A stretch of 64,000 nt of DNA, from IMG/VR virus record IMGVR_UViG_3300042691_028918, positions 1 to 64,000 of that record; one strand, given 5' to 3'. Positions within the stretch are counted from its first letter, which is position 1; each line of letters starts with the position of its first letter. Made by a program: the position numbers and the translations under genes. Of this stretch, positions 6,196 to 28,712 are shown piece by piece. Source of the stretch: a virus. Under the pieces are notes generated by a model that saw only the letters and a list, made by a program, of their open reading frames with translations, was not told the origin of the DNA and did no database searches.

Positions 6196-6211
6196 AATAA
6201 ATGAATAAATT

Positions 6212-8977: not shown

Positions 8978-9834
8978 TGAAAGATAAAAAAATAAGATTA
9001 GTTACAGTTACAGGAAGTAGAACAAACATACTACCACATATGTTAGATTACTATACATCTATTGTAGATGAAATTTATATTGTAGTTTATGAGTGGGAAG
9101 GTTTTTCTACATTCGATGCTGTCGAAGAAATTAGTGCTGTATTTGAAAATGTAAAAATAGTAAGAAGAGAAACAAAAGAAAAATATAATTGGGAATATGT
9201 AACACAGTTATATAATGAAATAAAAATGTTACATCCAGAAGATTGGTGGATAGTAGCAGATGATGATGAGTTTCATATATACTCAAAACAATTATCTGAA
9301 ATTATACATGATTGTGAAGAAAATGGGTGGGATTTGGTAAGAGGTGGATTTATTGATAGAATAGGTGAAGATGGTACTTTTCCAGAAATTATAAATAATA
9401 AGAATATTTTCTTACAGTTTCCAATAGCAGGATTTTTTAGATATCCAATGAGTGAAGCATGTCCTAATAAAGTTTGTATAATGAAAGGATATGTGGAATT
9501 GACTCCAGGACAACATTACGCAAAAATAGATGGACAAACAACTTGGCGTTGGCAAGGGTGGAATCACCCATTAATAGCACCTGTAAATGATTATAATGTT
9601 CAGGTACATCATTTTAAATGGGATAGTACTTGTGCTGATAGGATTAGAGAAGTAGCTAATATAAATAAAGGATATGCATATTCAGAAGAATACAGAAAAA
9701 TGTATAGAGAATTAGCAAAATGTAGATTTAAATTAGATATTAATAATTCGGAATATATGTTTGAAAATATTGGTGATGATTATGATGGATATTCAAATTG
9801 GAAAAAACTATTTAAAAAAATTATATCAATATAA
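8977..9834 (+). CDS. GT-A glycosyltransferase-like protein
   Basis: A 285-residue protein. RLVTVTGSRTNILPHMLDYYTS is the usual first strand and helix of family 2-like GT-A enzymes that act on a remote acceptor. DWWIVADDDEFHIY near residues 88-101 supplies an acidic DDD cluster expected to bind the metal and nucleotide-sugar phosphate. C-terminal HHFKWD resembles the late His motif of GT2/GT92-like proteins. The stop codon is followed by 60 non-coding A/T-rich bases before the next small gene. The sugar is unknown. It probably belongs to the same island as the flanking enzymes. Confidence 0.7.
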   Translation: MKDKKIRLVTVTGSRTNILPHMLDYYTSIVDEIYIVVYEWEGFSTFDAVEEISAVFENVKIVRRETKEKYNWEYVTQLYNEIKMLHPEDWWIVADDDEFHIYSKQLSEIIHDCEENGWDLVRGGFIDRIGEDGTFPEIINNKNIFLQFPIAGFFRYPMSEACPNKVCIMKGYVELTPGQHYAKIDGQTTWRWQGWNHPLIAPVNDYNVQVHHFKWDSTCADRIREVANINKGYAYSEEYRKMYRELAKCRFKLDINNSEYMFENIGDDYDGYSNWKKLFKKIISI

Positions 9835-9895: not shown

Positions 9896-10111
9896 ATGGC
9901 AGCAACAACAACAACTAAAAGAAACGAAGAAAAAGAACAAGAACTTTTACTTCTTGAAACAAGAAAAGTAAAAGCTTTAGAAAAAATTGCCAATTCATTA
10001 GATGCGCTAACAATTTGGTTTGAAGAAATCGAAAAAGATGAGTGGTCTGAAAGACTACAATGGTATCTGTACGAATGGCATAGCAAAAAGATAGCAGATA
10101 AAGATAAATAA
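9896..10111 (+). CDS. Small charged helical protein
   Basis: A 71-residue, strongly charged protein. After a short Thr-rich start (MAATTTTKRNEE), residues 12-45 are predicted to be a continuous helix with a heptad-like pattern (LLLLETRKVKALEKIANSLDAL). A Trp-rich end follows (IWFEEIEKDEWSERLQWYLYEW). Its stop overlaps the ATG of the first GT7-like gene (TAATG), so the two are coupled. I do not recognise a family. It could be a small partner of the adjacent glycosyltransferases, but nothing in the sequence proves it. Confidence 0.5.
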   Translation: MAATTTTKRNEEKEQELLLLETRKVKALEKIANSLDALTIWFEEIEKDEWSERLQWYLYEWHSKKIADKDK

Positions 10112-11544
10112 TGCAAAAACAAAAATTAGGAATAGTTGTACCATATAGAAATAGGAATCAACATTTATCTGAATTTTTACCTGCTATTAAAAAATACTTA
10201 AACAATTCACAAATTGTTTATGAAATCATTGTAGTTGAACAAGCCGATGAAAAACCTTTTAATAGAGGTAAATTATTAAATATCGGTACAAAAAAAGCCA
10301 TAGAGTTAGGTTGTAATTATTTAGTACTACATGATGTAGATATGCTACCTGTTGATGTTGATTACTCATATTCAACACGACCAACACATCTTGCGTACAA
10401 TTTTATATCGGAAAATACGGAAAAAAATATAGTTTTTGATGAATATTTTGGAGGAGTTACATTATTTCCTATAAGTGATTTTTTAAAAATAAACGGTTAT
10501 TCAAATGAATACTGGGGGTGGGGGTATGAAGATGATGATTTATTATTTAGATGTAAAGAAAATCTTATAGAATTAGATACAAAATATTATCCTGTAAAAA
10601 CAAGAAACTCCGCAGGGTTATACTTTAATGGTAAAGATTCCTATATCAAATGTCCAAAACCGTTTGCATTTGATAAAAATTATACAATATATGCATCCTT
10701 TGAACCGGATGAAATACAATGTGATTCTCAATATGATTTTGATGAATACGTTGTTTTTTCTGTTCCTGGATATGATACGGTGATAACATATGATTCCTTT
10801 AAAAGATATAAATTTGAAACTTGGTCTAAAAATAAAAAATTATATACACTAAAATCGAGTATAACACCAAAATTAAGAACCGTAATTGCAATCACAGTTG
10901 ACCAATATAACAGAATTATAAAAATGTATCAAGATGGTATTTTAGTTGATGAAACTCATATAGATGAAAAAGATCGATTGATGCCATACTATAATCAAGA
11001 ATTTTTTTATTTAGGAAAAACAACAACATCCGAATACAATAAAAAAAGACCATATAAAGGTGTAATAGATTATTTTGCAATATTTAATCACTCTTTAGAA
11101 GAAGGTCAAATACAAGAAATTTCAAATAATAAATATTTAGGATTAATTGAAAGTTATGGTAATTATACAACTCCGCATTGTTTAGAAGTTTGTTATGATA
11201 TGAAAATAAGTAAAAAATCTAAACTAATAGATTTATCAACACAACAAAATGATGCAATAATAAATAATTGTAAAAGAGTACCAATAATTGATAATGAATC
11301 AATTCAAGAGGTAAAAATCCCATCTAGAAGAAAGTGTACTTTTAAATTATTACCACATCCTGAAAATGGATTTTTTGAAAATAAATGGTTATATACCGAA
11401 ACAAGAAAAAATCAAATTAGATTTTACAATGAAGTTTTAGGAGGAAAAACAAATTGGAGAAGGGATGGATATGATACTTTAGAATACAAAGAATTAAGTT
11501 ATACAAATATGATTGATTACCATTTTATATCAGCCGAATTATGA
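10111..11544 (+). CDS. GT7 (beta-1,4-galactosyltransferase-like) enzyme with inserted LamG domain
   Basis: A 477-residue protein. The N-terminal half has the GT7 hallmarks in order: GIVVPYRNRNQHL (7-19), FNRGKLLN (50-57), HDVDMLP with metal-binding D75-V-D77, FGGV (113-116) and NGYSNEYWGWGYEDDDLLFRC (128-148). The remaining catalytic part, LLPHPENG with His416 and RRDGYDTLEYKEL, lies at the C-terminus and matches the metal-binding His loop and DGLNSLTY-type segment of beta-4-galactosyltransferases. Between them, residues about 168-375 form a LamG/concanavalin-like sandwich (GLYFNGKDSYIKC; FYLGKTT; YKGVIDYFAIFN). The LamG-like domain is therefore nested inside the GT7 fold, probably to hold the acceptor. 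The next gene is a paralog with the same layout, overlapping by 4 bases. Confidence 0.85.
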   Translation: MQKQKLGIVVPYRNRNQHLSEFLPAIKKYLNNSQIVYEIIVVEQADEKPFNRGKLLNIGTKKAIELGCNYLVLHDVDMLPVDVDYSYSTRPTHLAYNFISENTEKNIVFDEYFGGVTLFPISDFLKINGYSNEYWGWGYEDDDLLFRCKENLIELDTKYYPVKTRNSAGLYFNGKDSYIKCPKPFAFDKNYTIYASFEPDEIQCDSQYDFDEYVVFSVPGYDTVITYDSFKRYKFETWSKNKKLYTLKSSITPKLRTVIAITVDQYNRIIKMYQDGILVDETHIDEKDRLMPYYNQEFFYLGKTTTSEYNKKRPYKGVIDYFAIFNHSLEEGQIQEISNNKYLGLIESYGNYTTPHCLEVCYDMKISKKSKLIDLSTQQNDAIINNCKRVPIIDNESIQEVKIPSRRKCTFKLLPHPENGFFENKWLYTETRKNQIRFYNEVLGGKTNWRRDGYDTLEYKELSYTNMIDYHFISAEL

Positions 11545-13001
11545 AATTAGGAGTTTGCGTACCATACAGAAATAGAGAAGCACATTTAAAAAGATTTGTA
11601 CCTGAAGTTACAAAGTTTTTAAAAGAGGCCGGAATAGAACATACCATCTATATAGCACATCAATGTGATGATAGGTTATTTAATAGAGGATTGATGAAAA
11701 ATATAGCAGCAAAGTATGCATTCGAAGATGGATGTGATTATATTGTTTGGCATGATATTGATATGATTCCTGAAGATAATAGTTGTGATTATTCATATCC
11801 TAAAAATAATCCCGTACACATAGCAGTTAATATATCTCAATCGGATTATATGTTAAAGTACGAAGAATACTTTGGTGGTGCCGTATTGTTTACAAAAAAA
11901 CAAGTAGAAAAAACAAATGGATATTCAAATGATTATTGGGATTGGGGCATGGAGGATGATGATCTTTTTTGGAGATGTGTTAGAGAAGATATGGTAGATA
12001 GAACAACTCTTAATTATAATAGGAAAAAAATGGTTGGGGTTTTTGATGGTAAAGCATCTTATATGGAAATCCCAAACTCATTTGGGCATATATTAAATAA
12101 CTCACATACCGTTTCGATTTTGGTAAAAGCGGACCAGCAAATTGAAAAAGTTCCTATTTGGTTAATAGGTGATAGTGAGAGAAGATTTGTAGAATATCCT
12201 ATTTTGAGAAAACCTGGTTATGATTGGGGTATATCTTTTAATAATAGTAGAGCATATACTGCAATGTTGTGGAACAATAATAAAGAACAAATATACCAAT
12301 GGTTTAAACGATATGAAAATGAGTGGACATGGGTCACTATGGTAGTAGATACTATTGATAAAAAAATGCATTGGTATTTAAATGGAAGAGAGAGTTCTGC
12401 AAGAAACGGAACAGGTACCGAATCTCCAATAACATATACAGGATCGTTAAAGAGATATGGTTCTGAACCGTTTTATATAGGATATACGCCTAGTATTAAT
12501 GCAGATGAACCAAATACATTTTTTAAAGGTCAGATTTCTGATATAAAAATTTGGGATAGAGCATTAACTTCAAATGAAGTTAAAAATTTACATGAAACAC
12601 ATCCATTGGATAGTTTAATAATTCACTACGATTTTGAAAATATAGATAGAATAAATAGACAAGTAGTGGATTGCGTAACAGGTAATCACGCATACATATC
12701 AAGAGTTTCTTTTAAAACGGAAGATATAAAAATACCATATGTTGCATTACCTTATAGAAAAAACGGAAGATTTTATTGTTTACCACATAAGACGGAGGGT
12801 TTGATAAATGAAGGTGGAATGGAGAAGTGGGCAAAGGGTGAAACGACTGCAAGAAATGAAAGAAGATATGTGTTGGAAATGCAGCAAGGAAAAATAGATT
12901 ATAAAAAGGATGGAATGTCAAATGTTGATGAAAAATTTGAATTAATCGATATAGAAACAATATATTCCGAACATAAAATGATAAATGTAAAAGTTAAATA
13001 A
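11541..13001 (+). CDS. Second GT7-like enzyme with inserted LamG domain
   Basis: A 486-residue paralog of the preceding protein. GT7 motifs: CVPYRNREAHL (6-16), FNRGLMKNI (47-55), HDIDMIP with D72-I-D74, FGGAVLF (111-117) and NGYSNDYWDWGMEDDDLFWRC (126-146). The LamG-like insert occupies about 165-385 (GVFDGKASYMEIPN; FYIGYTPS; FKGQISDIKIWDRAL). The catalytic fold then resumes with FYCLPHKTEG, whose His416 has the same number as in the paralog, and KKDGMSNVDEKFELID. The identical nesting in both copies argues for duplication of one ancestral chimera. The two copies may add successive sugars or recognise different acceptors. It is followed after one base by the first radical SAM gene. Confidence 0.85.
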   Translation: MKLGVCVPYRNREAHLKRFVPEVTKFLKEAGIEHTIYIAHQCDDRLFNRGLMKNIAAKYAFEDGCDYIVWHDIDMIPEDNSCDYSYPKNNPVHIAVNISQSDYMLKYEEYFGGAVLFTKKQVEKTNGYSNDYWDWGMEDDDLFWRCVREDMVDRTTLNYNRKKMVGVFDGKASYMEIPNSFGHILNNSHTVSILVKADQQIEKVPIWLIGDSERRFVEYPILRKPGYDWGISFNNSRAYTAMLWNNNKEQIYQWFKRYENEWTWVTMVVDTIDKKMHWYLNGRESSARNGTGTESPITYTGSLKRYGSEPFYIGYTPSINADEPNTFFKGQISDIKIWDRALTSNEVKNLHETHPLDSLIIHYDFENIDRINRQVVDCVTGNHAYISRVSFKTEDIKIPYVALPYRKNGRFYCLPHKTEGLINEGGMEKWAKGETTARNERRYVLEMQQGKIDYKKDGMSNVDEKFELIDIETIYSEHKMINVKVK

Positions 13002-13002
13002 T

Positions 13003-14394
13003 ATGTTAAACGAAGCCATTTATTTTGAAAAAACAAAAAATCAACTTAATTCAGTTGGGTGTGGTTTCTGTTTAGCAAAGTGGACGCAAGTTACTATGCA
13101 TTTGGGTATTGGACTTACACATTCTTGTCACCATCCGGTCCAACATAAAATACCACTATCCGAAATAAAAAGAGATCCATCATCATTACATAATACGCGG
13201 TATAAAAAAACCCAAAGAAAAGAAATGCTTGAGGGTGGCAGGCCAAAGGAGTGTAATTATTGTTGGAACATAGAGGATAACTCAAATTCATTTTCAGATA
13301 GGATATTTAAATCTGCCGAACCGTGGTCTGCACCATATTTTGAACAAATAAAAGATTCACATTGGAGAGAAGAATTTAATCCAAGATATGTTGAAGTAAG
13401 TTTTTCAAATACGTGTAACTTTAAATGTGCATACTGCGGCCCACAATACTCATCTAAATGGGTAGAAGAAATTGAAAAATTTGGTGGATACAAAACATCA
13501 ACAAATTATAATAATATAGAAGAATTGTCCGCCAAAAATGAAATGCCATATAAACATTCGGAAGAAAATCCATATGTAGATGCATTTTGGGAGTGGTGGC
13601 CAGATTTATACAAAGACCTACATACATTCCGAATTACAGGTGGAGAACCCCTACTATCAAAAGATACTTTCAAAGTATTGGAATATATACAAACTCATTG
13701 GGAAGAAAATCCAAATTTATCATTAGCAATTAATAGTAATTTGGGAGTGCCTGATGCATTGGTAGATAAGTTTATTGAAATAGCAAAGGATTTATGTGAA
13801 AATAATAAAGTTAGAGAATTGATAATATTTACTTCCGTTGAAGCAAAAGGAAAACAAGCAGAGTATGTTAGATTTGGTTTGGATTATAATAGGTTTTGGA
13901 ATAATGTAGATAAAATATTGACAGAATTACCAAAAGTAACTATAAACATAATGGCAACATTCAATGCATTATCTGTTTTCACTTATTCGGAATTGATAGA
14001 TAAGATTTTTAAAATGAAAAAGAAACATGCCAATGATTATAGATATTGGGTATCGGCAATACAATTGGATACCTCATATTTAAGGCATCCATCACACTTA
14101 TCAGTAAAAATATTAGAAAAAGAACATAAAGAATTAATATTAGATTGTGCAAAAAAAGCACTATATTATGGAATGACAGAATTCGTTAGAGGTGCATATG
14201 GATTCTCAAATACCGAAATACAAAAAATAAAAAGATTATATGATTATGCAATATCTGAAGATAGTTTTGATATTGAAAAAAATAGAATAGATTTTATTAA
14301 ATTTGTAGATGAATACGATGAAAGACGCGGAACGAATTTTTTAGAAACCTTTCCAGAACTAAAAAATATATATGATACATATAGAAAAGGGTAA
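13003..14394 (+). CDS. Radical SAM protein, paralog 1
   Basis: A 463-residue protein. The 4Fe-4S/SAM motif CNFKCAYCGP supplies C138, C142 and C145 (CxxxCxxC), and FRITGGEPLL is the GGE motif that contacts SAM. A further set of cysteines precedes it: C20 and C23 (CGFC), C42 (HSCHHP), C84 and C87 (CNYCW), all conserved in the two other paralogs, which suggests an additional Fe-S or metal site. Similar phage proteins are annotated only as twitch-type radical SAM proteins of unknown function. Radical SAM enzymes perform C-H chemistry such as epimerisation or methylation on peptides or sugars. Substrate unknown; the sugar island context suggests a glycan or glycoprotein. Overlaps the LamG gene by 23 bases. 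Confidence 0.85.
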   Translation: MLNEAIYFEKTKNQLNSVGCGFCLAKWTQVTMHLGIGLTHSCHHPVQHKIPLSEIKRDPSSLHNTRYKKTQRKEMLEGGRPKECNYCWNIEDNSNSFSDRIFKSAEPWSAPYFEQIKDSHWREEFNPRYVEVSFSNTCNFKCAYCGPQYSSKWVEEIEKFGGYKTSTNYNNIEELSAKNEMPYKHSEENPYVDAFWEWWPDLYKDLHTFRITGGEPLLSKDTFKVLEYIQTHWEENPNLSLAINSNLGVPDALVDKFIEIAKDLCENNKVRELIIFTSVEAKGKQAEYVRFGLDYNRFWNNVDKILTELPKVTINIMATFNALSVFTYSELIDKIFKMKKKHANDYRYWVSAIQLDTSYLRHPSHLSVKILEKEHKELILDCAKKALYYGMTEFVRGAYGFSNTEIQKIKRLYDYAISEDSFDIEKNRIDFIKFVDEYDERRGTNFLETFPELKNIYDTYRKG

Positions 14395-14971
14395 ACCATG
14401 GATGTTTCATCCAAAGTGTTTGTGTGAAACATTTCCAGAAAATGCAGCAACAAAAATATTAAGTGGAGAATATAATTTTCAAATTGAAATGAAAATGACT
14501 CTACTGGATACATCATCTGGAAACGGTACAATATTTTGCATACTACCAAAATACACAGGACTTGATATTCATAAAAACATGCTTTTTTTTACTGTAAAAT
14601 ATGAGGATGAATCATCAAAATTTTATCAATTTCCATTTACAATAAGTGATGGTATACATATTCATTTAAAGATGATACATGTAGCTAAAAAATATTTAAA
14701 AATACTTATAAATGAGGAAGAACAATTGAATTTAAATTTAGAAAATTTGGGGTTATATAGTTGTGATAATTCGTGTATAGTATTCGGCGCAAACAGATAT
14801 ACTGAAATTGATGAAAATGCCAATTTAGCAGAATTTCATTTGTATGAGTTTAAACTCTATGAGAAAACAAATCTATTAGCACATCATACTTTTGATGAAT
14901 TTATTTTTAATAAATCCGTTGATAAGACCGGCAATTTGAACTTTATACATCATAAAATATTAGAATGTTAA
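14372..14971 (+). CDS. Stand-alone LamG-like (concanavalin A-like) protein 1
   Basis: A 199-residue protein with the strand pattern of a LamG-like sandwich: YNFQIEMKMTL early, IFCILPKYTG, KYLKILINEEEQLNLNL, then AEFHLYEFKLYE (the usual late strand before the final DF/ANNxGN-type segment) and HHTFDEFIFNKSVDKTGNLNFIHH. LamG-like domains bind glycans or proteins. It resembles the inserts in the two GT7 enzymes and the protein at 16353. It overlaps the first radical SAM gene by 23 bases and the second by 7, which places it between the two as a coupled unit. Met11 at 14402 is an alternative start. It may be a targeting subunit for the radical SAM protein; that is inference. Confidence 0.6.
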   Translation: MIHIEKGKPWMFHPKCLCETFPENAATKILSGEYNFQIEMKMTLLDTSSGNGTIFCILPKYTGLDIHKNMLFFTVKYEDESSKFYQFPFTISDGIHIHLKMIHVAKKYLKILINEEEQLNLNLENLGLYSCDNSCIVFGANRYTEIDENANLAEFHLYEFKLYEKTNLLAHHTFDEFIFNKSVDKTGNLNFIHHKILEC

Positions 14972-16356
14972 ACGAGGTATTTGAAAAGACTAGGGATAAG
15001 TTAAATAATGTTGGTTGTGGTTTTTGTTTAGCTAAATGGACACAAGTTACAATGCATTTACACAATGGAATGACGCACTCATGTCATCATCCAACTGCAC
15101 ATAAAATACCTTTAATTGAGATACTTGAAAATCCCACCGCATTACATAATACAAACTTTAAGAAACAAGTTCGTAAAGAAATGTTGGAAGGAAAAAAGCC
15201 AAAAGAATGTGATTATTGTTGGAACATAGAAAATAATTCAAATGCATTTTCCGATAGAACCTATAAATCATCTGAACCTTGGTCGGCACCATATTTTGGT
15301 GATGTTTTAAAATCTGGATGGCAAGGAAATTTTAATCCAAAATATGTTGAGGTTAGTTTTTCGAATACTTGTAATTTTAAGTGTTCTTATTGTGGCCCTC
15401 AATTTTCTTCTAAATGGGTAGAAGAGATTGAAAAATATGGCGGATACAATACATCTACAAATTTTAACAATATAGATTATTTTAAAAAACAGGGAACAAT
15501 GCCATATTTGGCATCCGAACATAATCCGTATGTAGAAGCGTTTTGGAAATGGTGGCCGGATTTATATAAAGATCTACATACATTCAGAATTACGGGTGGT
15601 GAACCTTTACTGAATAAAGATACTTTTAAAATATTAGATTATATTATAGAAACCGATACACCCAATAAAAATTTAAGTTTGTGTATTAATAGTAATTTGG
15701 GAATACCTAAAAAATTATTTAATGAGTTTGTTTCAAAAATAGAAAAAATATTAGAAAAGGAATTGGTTTATGAATTTATAATATTTACATCATGTGATAC
15801 TTACGGCAAGCAGGCGGAATATATACGAAATGGATTTGAATACAATTTGTTTAAAGAAAGGATTGATTTTCTTTTAGATAAATTTCCAACTTTGACCATT
15901 GATATAATGTCTACATATAATGCGTTATCCGTTCCAAATTATAAATTACTAATGAATGATGTTATTGAGTTAAAAAAGAGATACCATAATCCGTATAGAT
16001 ATTGGGGATCATCTATCTTATTAGATTCATCTTATTTACGTTGGCCGGATCATCAATCCGTTAAAATATTAGAAAAACAATGGGTTAATGAAATAGATGA
16101 ACAAGCAAAATTAGCAGACTTTCACGAACAAGTTAGAATAGGAGTTGATGATGGGTATGGGTTTACTGATATGGAAATAAATAAGATAAAAAGAATAAAA
16201 GATTGGTTTGAATCTGATGTTGATACGCAAGTACTTAATAGAAATAGAAAAGATTTTTTCACATTTGTAGCCGAACATGATAAAAGACGTGGAACTGATT
16301 TTTGTAAAACTTTTCCTGAATTAGAAGAATTTTATTATAAATGTAAATTGTTATGA
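14965..16356 (+). CDS. Radical SAM protein, paralog 2
   Basis: A 463-residue close paralog of the protein at 13003, the same length and alignable throughout. CNFKCSYCGP gives C136, C140 and C143; the N-terminal cysteines are C18, C21, C40, C82 and C85; FRITGGEPLL is the SAM-contacting GGE motif. The C-terminal region (FVAEHDKRRGTDFCKTFPEL) matches FVDEYDERRGTNFLETFPEL of paralog 1. The gene overlaps the preceding LamG gene by 7 bases and the following one by 4. The repeated radical SAM-LamG order looks like a cassette duplication. Two parallel enzymes probably act on related substrates. Confidence 0.85.
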   Translation: MLNEVFEKTRDKLNNVGCGFCLAKWTQVTMHLHNGMTHSCHHPTAHKIPLIEILENPTALHNTNFKKQVRKEMLEGKKPKECDYCWNIENNSNAFSDRTYKSSEPWSAPYFGDVLKSGWQGNFNPKYVEVSFSNTCNFKCSYCGPQFSSKWVEEIEKYGGYNTSTNFNNIDYFKKQGTMPYLASEHNPYVEAFWKWWPDLYKDLHTFRITGGEPLLNKDTFKILDYIIETDTPNKNLSLCINSNLGIPKKLFNEFVSKIEKILEKELVYEFIIFTSCDTYGKQAEYIRNGFEYNLFKERIDFLLDKFPTLTIDIMSTYNALSVPNYKLLMNDVIELKKRYHNPYRYWGSSILLDSSYLRWPDHQSVKILEKQWVNEIDEQAKLADFHEQVRIGVDDGYGFTDMEINKIKRIKDWFESDVDTQVLNRNRKDFFTFVAEHDKRRGTDFCKTFPELEEFYYKCKLL

Positions 16357-17024
16357 TTTTTAAAAATAAACATGCATATTTTGTAAAAAATAATACTAAT
16401 AATAATACAAATACTAAAAATTTTGAATTATTAAATAATGATTTTATAATAGAAGCTACATTCAAATTTGAAGAAGATACGAATCTGATACAAAGAGAAT
16501 ATTGTGTGGTTGGCAGAGTTGGTTATACTATGGGAATTTTTGTAGATTCTTATAAGAATATAAAATGGGAATGGTGGGAAACCAACGATGATGGTGAACA
16601 ATTGTATCGTGATATTTATGTAACAAATGTGGATGTGTTTAACTATAATACGATAAAAGTAATAAAAGAAAAAAATAGTTTTACATTATATGTAAATGAT
16701 AGAAAATACGAATCCGTTGAAGTAAATAATAAATTATACGATTATTCATCTAGTATAATATACATAGGAGCATCAAATCCATATTGCGAAAACAATGATG
16801 AAAATTGGTTCACAGGAGATATTTCAGATATTAAGATATATAATAGTAGTAATGAAACATTTGATGATTTATATTTGTGGTTCGATTTTAAAATAAATTC
16901 AAACTTTAAAACATTTGACAAATCAGGAAATGGAAATCATGGAGAAATATTTGAATCAAATGAAATAAAAAAAGATAAAAATATAGAATATAATAAATTT
17001 GCAAGACCTCCAAAAATAGTATAA
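16353..17024 (+). CDS. Stand-alone LamG-like protein 2
   Basis: A 223-residue protein with a clear LamG-like profile: FIIEATFKFEED, YTMGIFVDSYKNI, FTLYVNDRKYESVEVNN, IIYIGASNP, FTGDISDIKIYN and finally WFDFKINSNF with FDKSGNGNHGEIF, the typical closing D-x-S-G-N-x-N-G of bacterial LamG_3-type domains. It lacks a signal peptide, so it acts in the cytoplasm or in the virion. It overlaps the second radical SAM gene by 4 bases and is followed by a methyltransferase after 6 bases. Glycan or glycoprotein binding next to the modifying enzymes is the likely role. Confidence 0.75.
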   Translation: MIFKNKHAYFVKNNTNNNTNTKNFELLNNDFIIEATFKFEEDTNLIQREYCVVGRVGYTMGIFVDSYKNIKWEWWETNDDGEQLYRDIYVTNVDVFNYNTIKVIKEKNSFTLYVNDRKYESVEVNNKLYDYSSSIIYIGASNPYCENNDENWFTGDISDIKIYNSSNETFDDLYLWFDFKINSNFKTFDKSGNGNHGEIFESNEIKKDKNIEYNKFARPPKIV

Positions 17025-17030
17025 TATATT

Positions 17031-18137
17031 ATGCAAAGTAGAAAAAAATGTATTTTGTGTGGGTCTAAAATTGTAAATAAATATACAACTAAAATGCCCG
17101 TATTTATGGGTACTATTCAGTATATTTCTGATTATAAAGTAAATTCATATACCATATGCGAATGTTCGAAATGTGGTGAAATATTAATCAAAGAATTATT
17201 GGATTTCAAAGATGTATATTTAAATAATCATAATGTTGATATTGTAGGAGATTTGTGGATTAATCATTATGAAAAATTTTCTAATTTTATTTCAAATGAT
17301 ATTGAAAATGGGGTAGTGTTGGAAATTGGTGATCCTTCTGCAAAAATTGCAAAAAAAGTAGATAAATTTAAAAAATGGTATATCGTAGAACCCAATGCAT
17401 ATAAAACAAATGATGGGAATATTATTTTTATAAATAGTTTTTTTGATGAATCATTTGTGGATATAAAAGATGTTGATGTTATTGTACATTCGCACTATTT
17501 TGAACATTCATATGAACCAAATCAATTTTTAAAAAAATGTAATAAAATCTTAAAAAAGGGTGGAATTATGTTTATGAGTATTCCAAATATGGAGTATCTC
17601 TTAAATAGTAAAAAATCAATAGCATCTATACTTCATTTTGAACATACGTTTTATTTAAATGATGAAATTATTACTTATTTATTAAATAAAAATGGATTTT
17701 CAATTGAATTAAAAGAGAATTATAAAAATCATTCTATTTTTTATAAAATTAAAAAATCTAAAAAATCAATAAAAGACATAAAATTAAAAATTTCAGACAA
17801 ATTTAATTCCATTTGGGATAGAACGCTCACCAAAATCCAGAGTATAAATAACATATTAAAAAATACCAATCATACGGATATTTATATTTATGGTGCACAT
17901 GTAAACACACAATTTTATTTATATAATGGAATTGATAATAATAAAATAAAAGGAATTATAGATAATTCAAAAAACAAAAAAAATCAAATACTTTATGGAA
18001 CTGATAAAGTAGTTAATACTCCCGATATAATTAGAAATATGGATGAATGCATTGTTATTTGCAGTCATACTGGTGTATATTATAATGAAATATCAAAACA
18101 ATTAAAAAAACTAAATAAAAAAATAGAAATATTATGA
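17031..18137 (+). CDS. C-methyltransferase-like three-domain SAM methyltransferase
   Basis: A 368-residue protein. The N-terminus carries a zinc-binding pattern CILCGSK and CECSKCGE, as in the Methyltransf_13 domain of sugar C-methyltransferases such as TylC3. The central domain has VVLEIGDPSAKIA (SAM motif I, partly degraded), VDVIVHSHYFEHSYEPNQFL and KILKKGGIMFMSIPN. The C-terminus (IYIYGAHVNTQFYLY, IKGIIDNS, GTDKVV, ECIVICS) matches the Rossmann-like Methyltransf_14 domain. Family members add a carbon methyl to keto-deoxysugar nucleotides, which would fit the RmlC-type epimerase and SDRs encoded nearby. Overlaps the third radical SAM gene by 4 bases. Motif I lacks the usual GxGxG, so activity is uncertain. 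Confidence 0.7.
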   Translation: MQSRKKCILCGSKIVNKYTTKMPVFMGTIQYISDYKVNSYTICECSKCGEILIKELLDFKDVYLNNHNVDIVGDLWINHYEKFSNFISNDIENGVVLEIGDPSAKIAKKVDKFKKWYIVEPNAYKTNDGNIIFINSFFDESFVDIKDVDVIVHSHYFEHSYEPNQFLKKCNKILKKGGIMFMSIPNMEYLLNSKKSIASILHFEHTFYLNDEIITYLLNKNGFSIELKENYKNHSIFYKIKKSKKSIKDIKLKISDKFNSIWDRTLTKIQSINNILKNTNHTDIYIYGAHVNTQFYLYNGIDNNKIKGIIDNSKNKKNQILYGTDKVVNTPDIIRNMDECIVICSHTGVYYNEISKQLKKLNKKIEIL

Positions 18138-19582
18138 CAGAAGAATTAGCTAAATGGAGAGATGAAAATTTAAACAAAATAAGTTGTACTTTTTGTGCAG
18201 CAAAATGGTATAATGCAAGTTTGCATCTTGGGCATGGTTATACGAATTCGTGTCACTTACCACTTCCACATCCAATAGATCCTGAAGAAATAAAATCAAA
18301 TCCTTCAGCATTACATAATACTAAATTAAAGAAAGAAGCAAGAAAACTTATGTTGGAAGGCAAAAGACCGGCCGAATGTTCGTATTGTTGGAAAGTTGAG
18401 GATATTGGCAGAAATAATATAGCTGATAGAGTTTTTAAAAGTAAGATTTATAAAGAAGAAGATATCGCAGCTTTAAAAAACTTACCATGGGATGCGGATG
18501 TTATGCTTAAAACTGTAGAAGTATCTTTTGATAGAACTTGCAATTTTGCTTGTTCATATTGCAATGCCGGATACTCAACCACATGGGGGAAAGATATTAA
18601 ACAAAACGGGCCATACCAAAGATTTAAATCTTCTTCGGCCGGAGCATACTATGCAGATGGTTCTTGGTCTGAAATATATGGTAAATACAATGAAAACAAT
18701 CCATACGTCAATGCCTTTTTAGAATGGTGGCCTGAATTATCTCAACATTTAGAAGAAATACGTGTTACCGGCGGCGAACCATCACAGAGTAGAAATTTCT
18801 GGCAGTTTATAGAGTTGATGAAGAAATATCCATCACCAAATTTAAGACTTGCCGTTAATTCTAATTTGGGAACTAGTGAAAAAACTTTACAAAAACTTAT
18901 AGATGCTACCTATGATGTTGATATAAAAGAATTTGATTTATATACATCAAATGAAGCTTTTGGAGCTGCAGCGGAATACATTAGAGATGGAATAGATTAT
19001 AAACAATGGAGGGAAAATATGTGTACGTTCATCGAAAACGCAAACCCCAAAACCTTCAGGGCTTTGACTATAATGATGACCATAAACAGTTTGTGTTTAT
19101 ATAGCATAGTTGATTTCTTTGAAGATATGAAAGAATTAAAAGCAAAGTACGGACATCATAGACCTAATTTGGATTTAAACTTGTTAAGATGGCCGGCGTT
19201 CATGTCACCACTTGCATTGCCTGATGATCAAAAAATAAAATTGAGAGGAGAGTTACAAGGTTGGTATGAAAAAAACAAAGATAGTAACTTATTTGTTGTA
19301 GGAGAAAAGGCACAAATAGAAAGATTAATTGATTATCTTGATGTTGTAGAAAAGGGACACAATTCTACTGAATCTGATAAATCTTTATTACATCATGATT
19401 TTAAATCTTTTTATGAACAATACGATGTTAGACGTCATAAAGATTTTAGAAAAACTTTTCCTGATTTGGTAGAGTGGTATGATTCAATTGAAGTTGACAA
19501 TACCATTCACAAAGTAAAGGTGAATGATGGTAGATTGAGTAATTGGGAGATGGGTGAATATGTTTCTGATAAAATTGATTAA
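18134..19582 (+). CDS. Radical SAM protein, paralog 3
   Basis: A 482-residue, more diverged paralog of the proteins at 13003 and 14965. CNFACSYCNAG gives C136, C140 and C143; IRVTGGEPSQS is the GGE motif. The N-terminal cysteines C18, C21, C40, C82 and C85 have exactly the same numbering as in paralog 2, so the extra metal site is strongly conserved. The C-terminus is longer by about 20 residues. Unlike the others, it is followed not by a LamG gene but by a convergent operon: its TAA overlaps the stop of the minus-strand gene by two bases. Catalytic substrate unknown. Confidence 0.82.
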   Translation: MTEELAKWRDENLNKISCTFCAAKWYNASLHLGHGYTNSCHLPLPHPIDPEEIKSNPSALHNTKLKKEARKLMLEGKRPAECSYCWKVEDIGRNNIADRVFKSKIYKEEDIAALKNLPWDADVMLKTVEVSFDRTCNFACSYCNAGYSTTWGKDIKQNGPYQRFKSSSAGAYYADGSWSEIYGKYNENNPYVNAFLEWWPELSQHLEEIRVTGGEPSQSRNFWQFIELMKKYPSPNLRLAVNSNLGTSEKTLQKLIDATYDVDIKEFDLYTSNEAFGAAAEYIRDGIDYKQWRENMCTFIENANPKTFRALTIMMTINSLCLYSIVDFFEDMKELKAKYGHHRPNLDLNLLRWPAFMSPLALPDDQKIKLRGELQGWYEKNKDSNLFVVGEKAQIERLIDYLDVVEKGHNSTESDKSLLHHDFKSFYEQYDVRRHKDFRKTFPDLVEWYDSIEVDNTIHKVKVNDGRLSNWEMGEYVSDKID

Positions 19583-20337
19583 AAATTAGGATCTCCCAAT
19601 CTGGAATCACTTAATCTTAAACATTTTATCGGATAATCATTATACCAATCTCTATCACTAAAATCGGAATTAATTTCTTGTGAATGTATAATATAATTGT
19701 TTGTTATTTGATTTTGTTTTTTGCATAAAAGACTTAACACAGATTGTTCATATCTGTGTGTAACAAATTCGGGATGTTCGGGATTATATGAGTTTTCCCA
19801 ATTAACAGCATGATGTATACTGCATACATTGTACCATTCTTGCATTAAATCTTTTGCAAATTGGTTATTTTTTATAATCCAAAGACCACACCATAATTGT
19901 GGAGTTTGTAAATATTCATCCGAATCACAACCTAATAGTATTAGTGTATCTCTTTTACTATATTGTATTTCTTTGGGCCCCTCCCCCCTAAATATTACAA
20001 TTCCTGGACCCGAATCACATAGTTCAGCATATTGAAAAAATCTTTCTTTTGATTTTTCATTATTAATGATAGAATTTCCCGCATCTAAAAAAAATAAAAT
20101 TGAGTCTTTTTCAATTTCATTAAGTATTTTTAATGCCAGAGCAGGCTTCCAAAACCAATAACCTATTCCTGGACAACGTTTATCATTTGGAAATTGTTCT
20201 ATATCTGTTCTATCAAAACAAAAAAAATCATTAAACCAACCCGTATCTATTGCTTCTTTTTGTAATCTGAATTTAGTTTTTCTAAAATCACTAAATTGGC
20301 CTATATCACCAAAAGTAAATCCGTATATTTTTTTCAT
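19579..20337 (-). CDS. Putative GT-A-like transferase, tandem paralog A
   Basis: A 252-residue protein. Conserved pieces with its neighbour are IYGFTFG, FRLQKEAIDTGWF, GIGYWFWKPALALKIL, ILFFLDAGNSI, KRDTLILLGCDS, WIIKNNQFAKDLMQEW and EHPEFVTHRYEQSVLSLLCKK. The GxWFWKPxxxLxxL and FLDAG pair is seen in uncharacterised glycosyltransferase-like proteins of capsule and LPS clusters, where the D of DAG could be the metal ligand. It is the last gene of the eleven-gene minus-strand operon, 11 bases after its paralog. I infer a glycosyltransferase role from context; substrate unknown. Confidence 0.55.
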   Translation of the reverse strand: MKKIYGFTFGDIGQFSDFRKTKFRLQKEAIDTGWFNDFFCFDRTDIEQFPNDKRCPGIGYWFWKPALALKILNEIEKDSILFFLDAGNSIINNEKSKERFFQYAELCDSGPGIVIFRGEGPKEIQYSKRDTLILLGCDSDEYLQTPQLWCGLWIIKNNQFAKDLMQEWYNVCSIHHAVNWENSYNPEHPEFVTHRYEQSVLSLLCKKQNQITNNYIIHSQEINSDFSDRDWYNDYPIKCLRLSDSRLGDPNF

Positions 20338-20348
20338 CTCCCAACGTA

Positions 20349-21110
20349 TTATAACATTGAATCATCCAACCGCATTGCTTTTATAGGAAAGTTCAAATTT
20401 GGGTCTATATTGGTAATATCATGTGATATTTCATGTGCATTTAAAAAACAATTATTTAATAGATTTCTTCTTTTTTTACATAACACACTAAATACACCTT
20501 GATCGTGTTTGTGTGATATAAATTCTGGATGTTCCTCATTATAGGATTTTTCCCAATTTATTAAATGATTTATTTGGCATGCGTTGAACCAATCTTCCAT
20601 TAAATTTCTTCCAAATTGATTATTTTTTACAAACCAAATTCCAGATGAAATTTGAGATGTATACCAATAATCCGAATTATCACATCCTAATAATAATAGA
20701 GTATCTCTTTTGGTATATTGTATTTCCAATGGAACATTACTATCTCCTCCACCAAAACCAACAAATCCTGGTCCTTTATCACATAATTCTACATATTCAA
20801 AAAATCTTTTTTCGGAAGAATCCGTTTTATATATAGAACATCCGGCATCCATATATACAATAATATCATCCGGGGAACTATTATTCATAGTTTCTAGTGC
20901 CAGAGCAGGCTTCCAAAACCAAAATCCAACCCCGGCACCTTTTTGTGAATTATCAAACTTATTTATAAATTCTTGGTCATATGCAATAAAATTACCAAAC
21001 CAACCGGTATCAATTGCTTCTTGTTTTAATCTTAATTTACTTTTTGTAAAATCTTTATGAATCCCCTTCCCACCAAAAGTAAAGCCAATTGGTTTTTTAA
21101 TATTATTCAT
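20349..21110 (-). CDS. Putative GT-A-like transferase, tandem paralog B
   Basis: A 253-residue paralog of the protein at 19579. The same blocks occur in the same order: IGFTFGGKG, LRLKQEAIDTGWFGN, GVGFWFWKPALALETM, IIVYMDAGCSIY, KRDTLLLLGCDNSDYWYTSQISSG, WFVKNNQFGRNLMEDWF and EHPEFISHKHDQGVFSVLCKK. Aligned ends and equal length show a recent tandem duplication. It overlaps the E1-beta-like gene by 8 bases. The two copies may add the same sugar to different acceptors, or sequential units. Identification as a glycosyltransferase is by context and the WFWKP/DAG pattern. Confidence 0.55.
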   Translation of the reverse strand: MNNIKKPIGFTFGGKGIHKDFTKSKLRLKQEAIDTGWFGNFIAYDQEFINKFDNSQKGAGVGFWFWKPALALETMNNSSPDDIIVYMDAGCSIYKTDSSEKRFFEYVELCDKGPGFVGFGGGDSNVPLEIQYTKRDTLLLLGCDNSDYWYTSQISSGIWFVKNNQFGRNLMEDWFNACQINHLINWEKSYNEEHPEFISHKHDQGVFSVLCKKRRNLLNNCFLNAHEISHDITNIDPNLNFPIKAMRLDDSML

Positions 21111-21639
21111 TATATAATTCTGGATATTCGATGATACAATTTATTCCACCATTATCTATTGCATATAGGTATGCAAGTTCTAAATCTATTTTATTTTTAC
21201 AATCGTGAAAACTTATATTTTTACAAATTGATTTAAATTCATCAAAATAGTTTCCTTTATGTTGATGACCTGGGTCTAGAGGTTTATCACTTCCTTTCCC
21301 TAAACGAATTATCATATTTGGAATCCACTCATCGTTACTCATTAATTTTATTTTATCAATATGATTAACCAATTGATTTGTAGCACAAATAAGAAAATCC
21401 CATCTTGGATAAAAAGTAACTACAAACTTTCCGGCCATGGCCATACCCAAAGATATTCCCATTTGAGATTCTTCCATAACAGGAAGTTCTATCATTTTTT
21501 CTTTTGGAACGTATTCTAAAGTTGTACTCATTGGATTTCCTCTCCAAATAATTTGTTGTCCTATAAAAATTGATTCATCTTTTTCCGCTAATAATTTCAT
21601 AGAATCTATTAACACTTGTTTATACGATTTTTCTATCAT
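21103..21639 (-). CDS. Thiamine-diphosphate enzyme, beta-like (pyrimidine-binding) subunit
   Basis: A 178-residue protein corresponding to only the pyrimidine-binding domain of E1-beta/transketolase-like enzymes. ELPVMEESQMGISLGMAMAG (51-70) contains the Glu that activates thiamine diphosphate; VVTFYPRWDFLICATNQLVN is the following strand-helix. The usual C-terminal transketolase domain (about 130 residues) is absent. The matching alpha-like subunit is encoded five genes upstream in the same operon (26923-27555). Together they could form a minimal two-subunit C2-transferring or decarboxylating enzyme, perhaps for a branched or modified sugar. The reaction is not determinable from sequence. 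Confidence 0.75.
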   Translation of the reverse strand: MIEKSYKQVLIDSMKLLAEKDESIFIGQQIIWRGNPMSTTLEYVPKEKMIELPVMEESQMGISLGMAMAGKFVVTFYPRWDFLICATNQLVNHIDKIKLMSNDEWIPNMIIRLGKGSDKPLDPGHQHKGNYFDEFKSICKNISFHDCKNKIDLELAYLYAIDNGGINCIIEYPELYNE

Positions 21640-22477
21640 TTATTATTATTTTTTTATTTTTATCTTTATTGATTCTGTTTATAATATTGTTTGCTATTAT
21701 TTCATGGCATTTTTTTGAAGGATGATGATCTTTTGGAGTTTCTATAAAATACTCATAATCAGAATTTATATGTAATTCTATATTTTCATTCATTAAATTT
21801 CTAATTGTATTGTACTGCACATTATTATACTCAATCGGAATAAACCTATCCATAAACCAATCATCATCTCCAAAAAATTTTAAATAATCATTTTCCCAAC
21901 ATAAAAGTAAAACTTTTATACCTTTAGATTCATAAAATTGAAGTTCAGATTTTAATTTATTAAATACATTTGTATAATGCATTAATTCCCATTCCTCAAA
22001 CAAAATATTATTTTCTAATAACCACTCATAAAACATTTTTGATTCTTCTTCTTCCCAAGGTAAAAATACCCACTTCCGTCCTTTGTGTTCAAACTGAAAT
22101 TGATTTCTCACAATTTGAGATGTTTGTAAAACTATATATTCTATTTCATCATAAGAAAAAAAATCATCTATTAGATGTGTATGTGCGGTTTGTATACCAA
22201 AACATCTTTGCAAATAAACTATACTTGTATCTTCTGATCCCCCATTTTGTTTTGAAACAACTTCAAATGTATTAAAGTGATTAGCAACCAATCTGGGATA
22301 TCGTAGTGTAGCACCGTATCTTTTATGTGCATCGGTTAATAATGCCGGATTATACGCATCAGGAGGAGGTTCTTTTAGTGTAAATAAATTTGAATAATAA
22401 TACAAACCCTGTCCCCATGTAAAAGAACATCCTGCAAAAATAATTCCTTTTGTTATATTATCGTTTATAAACTCCAT
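21620..22477 (-). CDS. SGNH hydrolase-like protein
   Basis: A 285-residue protein. The N-terminal GIIFAGCSFTWGQGLYY is a GxSxTxG-like block I of the SGNH/GDSL superfamily (Cys-Ser with Ser as candidate nucleophile). NGGSEDTSIV is a plausible block with Gly and Asn, and near the end a D-H-H pair (TPKDHHPSKKCHEII) gives the expected catalytic His region. The family removes or transfers acyl groups on carbohydrates and lipids. In this operon it most likely acetylates or deacetylates a sugar, or acts on the linked glycan. It shares one base with the SDR stop and overlaps the beta-like subunit gene by 20 bases. Confidence 0.6.
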   Translation of the reverse strand: MEFINDNITKGIIFAGCSFTWGQGLYYYSNLFTLKEPPPDAYNPALLTDAHKRYGATLRYPRLVANHFNTFEVVSKQNGGSEDTSIVYLQRCFGIQTAHTHLIDDFFSYDEIEYIVLQTSQIVRNQFQFEHKGRKWVFLPWEEEESKMFYEWLLENNILFEEWELMHYTNVFNKLKSELQFYESKGIKVLLLCWENDYLKFFGDDDWFMDRFIPIEYNNVQYNTIRNLMNENIELHINSDYEYFIETPKDHHPSKKCHEIIANNIINRINKDKNKKIIINDRKIV

Positions 22478-23454
22478 TATTTATTAAATTCCATTTTATG
22501 TTCTAAATACCATTCGTATGCTAATTTTAAACCATCTTCCAGAGAGGTAGATGATTTCCAACCCAACTTATCATAAATCTTATTTGAATCGATTCTACGT
22601 ATCGGTATCATCGAAGGTTTACCTTTTATGAATTCTATTGGAGCATCATAATTAGCAATCTGTTTCATTTTATCCAATACATCTAAAACCGAATACACAT
22701 CATTGCAGCCAATATTATAAATCTCAAACATTTCAGTTTCCCTTTCCATTACAATTTGTAATGCTTCAACAAAATCTTCAATATAAAGTAAATCTCTCAA
22801 TTCAGTACCATCACCCCAAATCGGAATAGGATTCATCTTATCGGCAACTTTACGAATTGTTGCAGGAGTAACGTGACATTTATCAAAATCGTATTTATCA
22901 TGTGGACCAAATAAATTTGCCGGCCTGATTACCGTGCATTTCATTTTTTCTGGTAAGTATTTTGCATATAATTCACATTGAACCTCTGCGTATCTTTTCA
23001 TCCAACCAACTGGAAAATAAACAGGATATGGCGCATCAAATAAGAAATCTTCTTCAGATACAGCCACATCTCCCTTTGGTGGATATACGGTATTTGATGA
23101 TAAGAAAATGTAATGTTGAACTTTATTTCTCCAACTGGCATCAATTAAGAAATTATTCATTGCTACATTTGGAGTAACATGTGCCAATGGGTCAACTACG
23201 GTATCTACTGCGTTTGATGTACTTGCAGCACAATGGTAAACTACATCTATTCCTTTGGTTGCTTCCAAACATCCATCATATGTTTTTAAATCAAAATTAA
23301 CGTATTCTACATCATCGATTGGATTTCTTACACTTCTTTTATGCAAATTAACTCTAATGTGTTTATATCCTTCTTTATATAATCGGTTTGTTAAGTTTTG
23401 TCCTACTAATCCGGAACCACCTGTTATTAGTATTTTTGAATCTTTATTTATCAT
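22477..23454 (-). CDS. NAD-dependent epimerase/reductase-like SDR, catalytic Tyr replaced
   Basis: A 325-residue extended SDR. The nucleotide-binding motif TGGSGLVG (11-18) and the late motifs RPANLFGP, WGDGTELRDLLYIEDF are those of GDP-fucose synthase-like and 4-ketoreductase enzymes. The YxxxK motif reads V149-G-W-M-K153, so the catalytic Tyr is Val (codon GTT checked on the sequence) while Lys is kept. FLSSNTVYPP supplies the usual Ser/Thr. The overlap with the next SDR gene is 4 bases (ATGA). It may be inactive as a classical SDR, may use another acid, or may act on a substrate that needs none. Confidence 0.75.
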   Translation of the reverse strand: MINKDSKILITGGSGLVGQNLTNRLYKEGYKHIRVNLHKRSVRNPIDDVEYVNFDLKTYDGCLEATKGIDVVYHCAASTSNAVDTVVDPLAHVTPNVAMNNFLIDASWRNKVQHYIFLSSNTVYPPKGDVAVSEEDFLFDAPYPVYFPVGWMKRYAEVQCELYAKYLPEKMKCTVIRPANLFGPHDKYDFDKCHVTPATIRKVADKMNPIPIWGDGTELRDLLYIEDFVEALQIVMERETEMFEIYNIGCNDVYSVLDVLDKMKQIANYDAPIEFIKGKPSMIPIRRIDSNKIYDKLGWKSSTSLEDGLKLAYEWYLEHKMEFNK

Positions 23455-24386
23455 AAATTGTTTTTATAATGTTTATATGTTATTTTTAATGCATCTTTAA
23501 ATCCTGTGTTTGGTAATAATCCTATTTGTTTTTGTTTCGTAGTATCCATCTGTCTACGAGTATCACCATTTGGTTTTGTACTATCCCATACTATTTCTAA
23601 TTTTTTATCACTAATTTCAATTACATTTTCTATCATAGATTTTATTGTAATTTCTTCACCACTTCCAAAGTTAATTACATCGTGTATTTTATTTTCGTAT
23701 AATTTTAATATCGCATCGGCAACATCGCCAGCATATACAAAATCCCTAATTGGTGAACCATCACCCCATGCTTCTATAAAATCTTTATCGGATTCATATA
23801 CCTTTTTAATAGTTGAAGCAATTACAGTACCATTTCCACTAAAATCATCATATTCACCAAATATATTGGCAGGTCTTAATATAGCATAGTTTTTATAATT
23901 ATATTGTATTTTAGATGCTTCTAACAATAGTTCACTCATTCGTTTACTCCAACTAGGATACCAATCTGCATCAGAAGGTAAAGTTTTCCAAACACTATCC
24001 TCAATAAATTTTTCAGCTGGGGAGTATACTCCAACGGAACTAACAAATATCAACCAAATATTATTTTTTGCACACTCATTTATAATCTCCGTATTTATTT
24101 TAAAAGATGGATATAAAAAATCGTATGGTTCATTTTTTGCACGCATAGGTGAACCCTTTATACCAAATGCATTAAAAACTACATCGGGACTTTCAAAAAA
24201 GAATAAATTTTTTATATTATCCGATAAAGTCAAATCCATTTCGTAGAATGTAAATTTTTCCGAAATGGGTAAATGCTTTGAATGCCTAATATCTGCACCA
24301 ATCACTTCATAACCTTTTTCTAAACATTTTTTAACCAAATGAATACCAACTAATCCACTACATCCTGTTATTAAAACTTTTTTCAT
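23451..24386 (-). CDS. NAD-dependent epimerase/reductase-like SDR, displaced catalytic Tyr
   Basis: A 311-residue extended SDR. TGCSGLVG (7-14) is the Rossmann loop; FVSSVGVYSP, RPANIFGE and WGDGSPIRDFVYAGDV are the family motifs. In the YxxxK region it reads Y143-P144-S-W-S-K148, so Tyr is one residue too far from Lys and Pro sits at the standard place. It is a paralog of the adjacent SDR, sharing the W-x-K-R core. It most likely binds NAD(P) and a nucleotide sugar, but its catalytic acid is uncertain. One-base overlap with the 858-residue gene upstream. Confidence 0.75.
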   Translation of the reverse strand: MKKVLITGCSGLVGIHLVKKCLEKGYEVIGADIRHSKHLPISEKFTFYEMDLTLSDNIKNLFFFESPDVVFNAFGIKGSPMRAKNEPYDFLYPSFKINTEIINECAKNNIWLIFVSSVGVYSPAEKFIEDSVWKTLPSDADWYPSWSKRMSELLLEASKIQYNYKNYAILRPANIFGEYDDFSGNGTVIASTIKKVYESDKDFIEAWGDGSPIRDFVYAGDVADAILKLYENKIHDVINFGSGEEITIKSMIENVIEISDKKLEIVWDSTKPNGDTRRQMDTTKQKQIGLLPNTGFKDALKITYKHYKNNL

Positions 24387-28708: not shown

Positions 28709-28712
28709 TATT

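Follow-up and report, generated by a model that had tools for sequence, protein, structure and literature searches.

Several described systems resemble parts of the locus analysed here. In pelagimyophages and cyanomyophages, radical SAM cassettes have been noted in the host recognition cluster, and a role on host glycans has been proposed for the glycosyltransferases of the same island (PMC7029224); the portions of that paper considered here do not describe LamG domains, GT7-LamG enzymes or a fixed module order. Phage glycosyltransferases decorate virion proteins, for example in mycobacteriophages, where there is no LamG partner (cited in PMC11256854 and PMC12619734), and others hypermodify DNA (reference cited in PMC12619734). 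RRE-dependent radical SAM maturases rely on a small recognition partner, discrete or fused to the enzyme (PMC7470986). Among single enzymes, the closest known counterparts are the galactosyltransferases B4GalT7 and B4GalT1 (GT7), the sugar-acting radical SAM enzyme DesII, which has no LamG partner, and the members of NF033640 (N_Twi_rSAM), a widespread radical SAM family with no assigned function. Radical SAM enzymes also take part in other phage base modifications; to our knowledge, no radical SAM step has been described in virion glycosylation, and no description of LamG paired with radical SAM cassettes of the present kind was found in the literature.

Results

Gene order and the conserved module

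The window, a 64,000-nucleotide stretch of the virus record IMGVR_UViG_3300042691_028918 (positions 1 to 64,000), takes in structural genes of a T4-like phage, with a giant tail fibre and a Peptidase_S74 chaperone (382..6742, plus strand; S74 Pfam E 2e-19) upstream and genes for TerL, the portal and a T4-type head protein downstream. As in the pelagimyophage-type host recognition cluster, fibres, glycosyltransferases and radical SAM genes form an island. The pelagimyophage-type cluster is bounded by VrlC and the neck gene gp14; in the window, gene 34944 had no PHROG match. Comparison of related loci gave a conserved phage module with the order (fibre)-GT-MT-GT2-GT7/LamG-GT7/LamG-rSAM-LamG, a fibre or S74 homologue lying no more than two genes ahead of it in 37 of 65 loci.

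All genes of the module are on the plus strand. The first (7257..8237) is glycosyltransferase-like by family comparison across GT7 loci and has no Pfam name; in 44 GT7 loci a member of its family occupies the third position before the first GT7, with more copies one or two positions off. It is followed by a class I methyltransferase (8201..8977; Methyltransf_24, E 1.6e-9; same family at the -2 position in 63 loci), a GT2-like glycosyltransferase (8977..9834; Glyco_tranf_2_4, below threshold at E 4e-5; directly before GT7 in 70 loci) and two GT7 enzymes of the beta-1,4-galactosyltransferase type (10111..11544, Glyco_transf_7N/7C and Laminin_G_3 above thresholds; 11541..13001, matching beta-4-galactosyltransferase 7 with E 3e-29). 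The catalytic part, with its W(G/D)WGxEDDD motif, is like that of B4GalT7/B4GalT1, whereas LamG follows it in every full-length phage GT7 homologue (243/243). No galactosyltransferase was matched when a profile of 11 GT7 C-terminal tails was searched against the PDB; LamG is therefore said to lie after the catalytic part and before a conserved C-terminal tail, and its description as a true insertion into the GT7 domain was dropped. In a hydropathy scan, signal peptides and transmembrane segments were absent from the module's proteins.

The region 13003-19582 encodes, in order, a radical SAM protein, a LamG protein, a second radical SAM protein, a second LamG protein, a methyltransferase and a third radical SAM protein, all on the plus strand, and ORF coordinates confirmed the tight packing described in the original prediction: neighbouring genes overlap by 23, 7, 4 and 4 bases, and the single gap, of 6 bases, precedes the methyltransferase. 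The first radical SAM gene (13003..14394; 338 bits, invariant cysteines, tree) and the second (14965..16356; NF033640, tree) belong to the same GT7/LamG-linked clade and are 61% identical. They are not sisters, and the stand-alone LamG genes behind them (14372..14971, divergent, and 16353..17024) come from different subfamilies, so that the apparent repetition of the cassette is not a tandem duplication.

The two remaining genes had been counted as parts of the same system, and are better described as accessory. The sugar C-methyltransferase-like gene (17031..18137), an insertion particular to this phage, scored above the Pfam threshold for Methyltransf_11 and matched phrog_24523 (function not assigned; E 6e-37), with a weak match to the C-methyltransferase C-terminal domain PF08484 (18.4 bits vs. 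a cut-off of 23.5; E 0.002); no similar gene turned up among the first 160 loci. The third radical SAM protein (18134..19582; NF033640) belongs to a different clade of the tree, which occurs without LamG as well.

Radical SAM proteins

All three radical SAM proteins in the window were members of NF033640, well above the curated cut-off of 170 bits (337.6, 336.4 and 283.2 bits), and carried an N-terminal twitch; the radical SAM motif CxxxCxxC at 138-145 (C138/C142/C145) and the N-terminal auxiliary-cluster cysteines C23, C42, C84 and C87 were invariant in 16/16 aligned members. The first two belonged to a single GT7-linked clade (32 leaves, support 0.998), distinguished from the wider family by its association with GT7-LamG and with a downstream or fused LamG. 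Many N-twitch radical SAM proteins do without LamG, cellular members in Bdellovibrionota among them (in cellular loci, none of 701 neighbouring genes encodes LamG); these Bdellovibrionota homologues are also near glycosyltransferases and sugar epimerases. The possibility that such genes are widespread without LamG or glycosyltransferase neighbours was thus realised, as regards LamG, for the wide family and not for the clade of the first two window proteins. No isolated named phage carried the module, and only two Vibrio phages had a 23% identical radical SAM protein. The nearest solved folds included peptide enzymes (SkfB, Z 14.1; SuiB; anSME), nucleotide enzymes (MoaA, viperin) and a sugar enzyme (DesII, Z 12.3); the fold thus points to no single substrate class.

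LamG proteins

LamG assignments were above the PF13385 gathering threshold (27.6 bits) for both GT7-borne domains (44 and 58.8 bits; genes 10111 and 11541), bearing out the observation that LamG modules are common to the GT7 enzymes upstream, and for the second stand-alone protein (gene 16353; 32.4 bits; Laminin_G_3 E 1.2e-7; 73 bits against an HMM of GT7-borne LamG). Gene 14372 had no Pfam sequence match and is a LamG protein by predicted fold: its AlphaFold2 model was an all-beta sandwich (pLDDT 78.6, pTM 0.81) matching LamG/pentraxin domains (PAPP-A, Z 15.2; laminin, neurexin and agrin, Z 13-14), and its relatives also matched the LamG HMM. In Foldseek, the LamG models matched botulinum neurotoxin binding domains best (TM ~0.5, 15% identity); this reflects a shared concanavalin-like jelly roll, and VIA placed ordinary LamG domains first, so no toxin relation is proposed. 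Direct searches of viral contigs with both LamG proteins returned no relatives; LamG probably changes too quickly to be caught by pattern seeds. When the HMM was built from GT7-borne LamG alone, stand-alone LamG was enriched beside radical SAM genes (25 of 179 adjacent genes vs. 6 of 1298 genes at least 3 positions away; p 1e-18).

Linkage of radical SAM and LamG

The anticipated co-occurrence of radical SAM with LamG and GT7-LamG genes was borne out: a reverse search from GT7-LamG located a gene for this radical SAM protein in all of the best 80 relatives in viral contigs (80/80), adjoining GT7 in nearly all. A recognised LamG directly followed the radical SAM gene in 51 + 3 of 78 loci, and in the other 22 loci nearly all were LamG-like by eye. 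In one lineage (at least 12 contigs) LamG was fused to the radical SAM N-terminus, the fused part having a predicted LamG/pentraxin fold (stand-alone LamG rows were left out of the AlphaFold2 alignment, as MAFFT misplaced them), and one GT7-LamG-rSAM triple fusion was identified.

Among 42 dereplicated loci, the radical SAM protein and its downstream LamG co-diverged strongly (Mantel r 0.79, bootstrap CI 0.73-0.85; 0.73 as a partial r that corrects for genome relatedness), whereas other pairs of separate genes reached 0.31-0.60, including 0.58 for the equally adjacent rSAM-GT7 pair. The rate of change in LamG is roughly double that of the enzymes: mean divergence was 0.79 for LamG vs. 0.40 for radical SAM, and 0.48 for the LamG of GT7 vs. 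0.24 for the GT7 core. The presence of LamG in every full-length GT7, its fusion to radical SAM and its co-divergence with it make GT7-LamG, radical SAM and LamG one system, as had been suggested from this locus.

Downstream, convergent sugar-synthesis and glycosyltransferase genes occupy 19579..29684 (minus strand): NAD-sugar epimerases, a split TPP enzyme (26923 and 21103), a dTDP-rhamnose-epimerase-like protein (27555) and a GT34-like protein (19579), the epimerase names resting on a reading of the sequences. The content of these sugar genes covaried with radical SAM (r 0.59) and LamG (r 0.56); covariation fell off with gene distance and could reflect recombination linkage. Nothing in the island was recognised as a membrane flippase, polymerase, ligase or export protein.

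Discussion

We tentatively propose, as the most plausible reading, a two-part radical SAM enzyme that tailors a sugar or glycoconjugate produced by the island itself, with LamG as the variable subunit responsible for targeting. As a glycan-tailoring module, the locus would belong to the hypervariable host-recognition island that lies close to the tail fibre in large T4-like phages, and its GT7 and GT2 enzymes may build a glycan from NDP-sugars supplied by the downstream genes. Together with the LamG encoded directly behind it, each N-twitch radical SAM protein of the GT7-linked clade would form a cognate enzyme, sometimes as a single chain, the variable LamG carrying a conserved radical-chemistry core to the acceptor for C-H chemistry (putatively epimerisation, dehydrogenation, deoxygenation or crosslinking). 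This acceptor would be handled in the cytosol and would most likely be a virion glycoconjugate. The constant co-occurrence, the LamG in all GT7 homologues, the fusions, the single clade, the co-divergence, the faster change of LamG than of the catalytic cores and the invariant cluster cysteines are points in favour, together with the covariation with sugar genes, the lack of signal peptides and transmembrane segments, and the sugar-gene neighbours in Bdellovibrionota. The mixed nearest folds, the LamG-less N-twitch proteins, the linkage-type decay of covariation with sugar genes and the behaviour of the fibre count against it: in 24 loci fibre and LamG did not covary (r 0.08 for the whole fibre, 0.14 for the last 500 aa). 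The fibre, tested as a common target, is thus unsupported as such, and is not claimed here as the target specified by LamG.

A possible but rather unlikely alternative moves the target to the host surface: the island would remodel O-antigen or capsule during infection and block competing phages, LamG being a lectin on the host glycan. The role proposed for island glycosyltransferases in pelagimyophages and cyanomyophages (PMC7029224) agrees with this, as do the downstream deoxysugar genes and the polysaccharide-type contexts of cellular homologues, but the island lacks any recognised machinery for polymerising, ligating or exporting such a glycan, and the hydropathy scan revealed no segment directing the module to the membrane. 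A lytic phage, moreover, has little time in which to gain from such remodelling.

That the stand-alone LamG proteins are themselves the substrates, modified by the radical SAM and glycosyltransferase enzymes to become virion or secreted components, is improbable. One LamG gene directly behind each GT7-linked radical SAM gene would suit this, co-divergence is expected of enzyme-substrate pairs too, and fast divergence would fit an exposed protein; the occurrence of LamG within all full-length GT7s, and of fusions between LamG and radical SAM, is however more in keeping with a docking domain than with a substrate.

Quite improbable, too, is a LamG that binds a peptide or protein modified by the radical SAM enzyme, as RRE domains do for RiPP maturases. 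The discrete-or-fused pattern is the same (PMC7470986) and the nearest fold is that of the RiPP maturase SkfB, but RRE domains are winged helices (PqqD-like) and not beta sandwiches, the context is one of sugar genes, and 13001-19582, where genes overlap or lie at most 6 bases apart, has no precursor peptide gene and no space for one. LamG would at most work like an RRE, without being a member of that group. Decoration of phage DNA bases against restriction is very improbable despite the precedents for both enzyme types (for the glycosyltransferases, the reference cited in PMC12619734), as the module adjoins the fibre and not replication genes and GT7 is a protein/glycan enzyme family. Thymidylate-synthase family proteins (PF00303, a match that does not tell their type) were present in 5 of 10 related records.

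Under the two-part tailoring enzyme, these results suggest that in large aquatic phages the pairing or fusion of enzymes with LamG is a way, not described before, of making unusual sugar modifications, and a fast-changing LamG probably steers both the sugar-transferring and the radical enzymes. A bolder version seems doubtful: a lectin-fold-guided class of radical SAM enzymes in which LamG, discrete or fused, delivers the radical core and the sister GT7s to the same virion glycoconjugate, virion glycans being edited by radical C-H chemistry after assembly with LamG setting the specificity. The module, the fusions and the covariation open one clade of NF033640 to experiment: which partner it needs and where to seek its substrate. 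A docking role for LamG would amount to a modular means of directing radical reactions to sugars, of use in glycan engineering, and would add radical editing to the means by which abundant aquatic phages vary their own or the host surface.

The radical SAM/LamG module and its conservation

The six genes at 13003-19582 lay where the original prediction had placed them, with a single gap of 6 bases and otherwise overlapping by 23, 7, 4 and 4 bases: the radical SAM genes 13003, 14965 and 18134 (named by start position), the LamG genes 14372 and 16353, and the C-methyltransferase-like gene 17031. All three radical SAM proteins far surpassed the cut-off of NCBIfam NF033640 (N-terminal-twitch radical SAM, N_Twi_rSAM). 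In an alignment of 16 members the motif cysteines were invariant, and so were C23, C42, C84 and C87, which would be expected to ligate an auxiliary cluster. LamG 16353 was above the Pfam threshold, and both upstream GT7 (beta-1,4-galactosyltransferase-like) genes, 10111 and 11541, also had Pfam LamG domains. LamG 14372 was below detection in the Pfam search; its AlphaFold2 model was a LamG/pentraxin beta sandwich and the LamG profile also matched its relatives.

Gene order was mapped in 160 viral loci from two radical SAM searches (several on shared contigs), many of which had the order glycosyltransferase, methyltransferase, GT2, GT7/LamG, GT7/LamG, radical SAM, LamG, radical SAM. The predicted co-occurrence with GT7-LamG was borne out by a reverse search seeded with GT7-LamG, without selection for radical SAM: all of the best 80 loci (57-87% identity) contained radical SAM, adjoining GT7 in nearly all. 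The gene after the first radical SAM, present in 78 of the 80, was LamG in 51, of the 14372 subfamily in 3, radical SAM in 2 and unassigned in 22, nearly all of these with a LamG-like C-terminal signature by eye (exception L231). LamG was present in all 243 unique full-length phage GT7s and, using a profile trained on GT7-borne domains only, stand-alone LamG was found in 25 of 179 genes adjoining radical SAM vs. 6 of 1298 genes at least three positions away (p 1e-18). The module is real and conserved. The radical SAM family and radical SAM cassettes in this phage region were already known; the module as such is apparently undescribed, and no description of the LamG partnership, fusions or co-divergence was found in the open-access literature searched.

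Fusions and co-divergence

A LamG of 215-235 residues was joined in-frame to the radical SAM N-terminus in at least 12 contigs (including L012, L084, L092-L098, L140, L146 and L154), followed by a second LamG. The AlphaFold2 model of the L094 fusion had one LamG/pentraxin and one radical SAM part, the latter nearest to the solved structures of SkfB, BlsE, MoaA, SuiB, DesII, anSME and viperin. One 914-aa reading frame (L265:4175-6919) comprised GT7, LamG and radical SAM; being the sole case, it may have arisen by a chance, apparently short, deletion at the junction.

Pairwise distances in 42 loci dereplicated by radical SAM correlated at r 0.79 between radical SAM and the LamG directly downstream, vs. 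0.58 between radical SAM and its other neighbour, GT7, 0.31-0.60 for the remaining pairs of separate genes and 0.84 for the two domains of one GT7 chain; physical linkage inflates such correlations, and adjacency alone yields 0.44-0.60 in this set. The difference between the two radical SAM pairs stayed positive in the bootstrap (0.09-0.34), and the radical SAM-LamG partial correlation was 0.73 (p 0.001) after removal of GT7, GT2 and methyltransferase distances. LamG diverged much faster than radical SAM (mean distance 0.79 vs. 0.40), and inside GT7 the LamG domain diverged at twice the rate of the catalytic part (0.48 vs. 0.24). Steady catalytic cores with variable LamG are the pattern expected if LamG were a subunit for specificity or targeting.

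Core and accessory genes

In a tree of 236 dereplicated radical SAM sequences, every one that immediately follows GT7-LamG or has a fused LamG fell in one clade (32 leaves, support 0.998), including 13003 and 14965, which were not sisters. Closest to 14965 was the radical SAM of locus L114, which there too is followed by LamG and a radical SAM of the same type as 18134. Gene 18134 was in a different clade whose members also occur without LamG, and no C-methyltransferase homologue was found at any other of the first 160 loci; both are therefore accessory to a core of 13003/14372 and 14965/16353.

Candidate target

We infer both the reaction and the target molecule of the module, tentatively placed by the original prediction in glycan or protein modification. 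A simple hydropathy scan found no signal peptide or membrane segment in any module protein, which makes the cytosol the probable place where the acceptor is reached. In 37 of 65 loci a fibre homologue lay upstream at a distance of at most two genes, but no fibre-LamG covariation was found. The content of downstream sugar-synthesis genes covaried with radical SAM (0.59) and LamG (0.56), which may be linkage, since it drops with gene distance.

Phage setting

The window covers 64 kb of a linear IMG/VR virus record of 65,337 bases. The virus is a tailed phage whose T4-type traits include a terminase (36233-37867), a portal protein (39063-40805) and a phrog_138 major head protein. Upstream of the sugar island (7257-29684) lie a giant fibre (382-6195) and a chaperone with Peptidase_S74. 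A different environmental genome of T4-like type carries 12 radical SAM genes (PMC5332604).

The island also encoded a split TPP-dependent enzyme, its E1/TPP and transketolase pyrimidine parts being separate genes (26923-27555 and 21103-21639, both minus strand), perhaps for two-carbon branched sugars; at many loci the TPP part was again encoded downstream of the module. An 858-aa protein (24386-26962, minus strand), seemingly of two similar halves, had relatives frequently near N_Twi_rSAM genes without LamG. A 1416-aa protein (30648-34898, plus strand) combined an N-terminal cytidylyl/nucleotidyltransferase domain (phrog_395) with a remainder of no recognised identity. Shine-Dalgarno-like sequences were scarce window-wide and A/T-rich TAAATA-like stretches preceded most start codons, which may hint at the host group.

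Relatives outside the module

The close cellular relatives found were mostly on Bdellovibrionota chromosomes; the others were largely on short marine contigs, which may be phage. None of their 701 neighbouring genes was LamG; neighbours included glycosyltransferases, sugar epimerases and other radical SAMs. Among the cellular genome contigs (L166-L226), N_Twi_rSAM homologues were concentrated in Bdellovibrionota, some near the ribosomal gene rplU; a frequent neighbour was a 315-aa protein that had a nucleotidyltransferase-like SDLD motif but matched nothing in Pfam. A family of about 280-310 aa with a 'YDEP' N-terminus and no Pfam match (L053:7465-8394, L181:7159-7995), possibly a glycosyltransferase, lay upstream of N_Twi_rSAM at many phage loci that lack LamG and in one Bdellovibrionota chromosome. 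One N_Twi_rSAM (L053:9431-11365) carried another N-terminal domain of about 190 aa, not LamG, and two proteins of about 840 aa (L069:14604-17129 and L077:12683-15223) each comprised a tandem pair of SPASM/radical SAM units.
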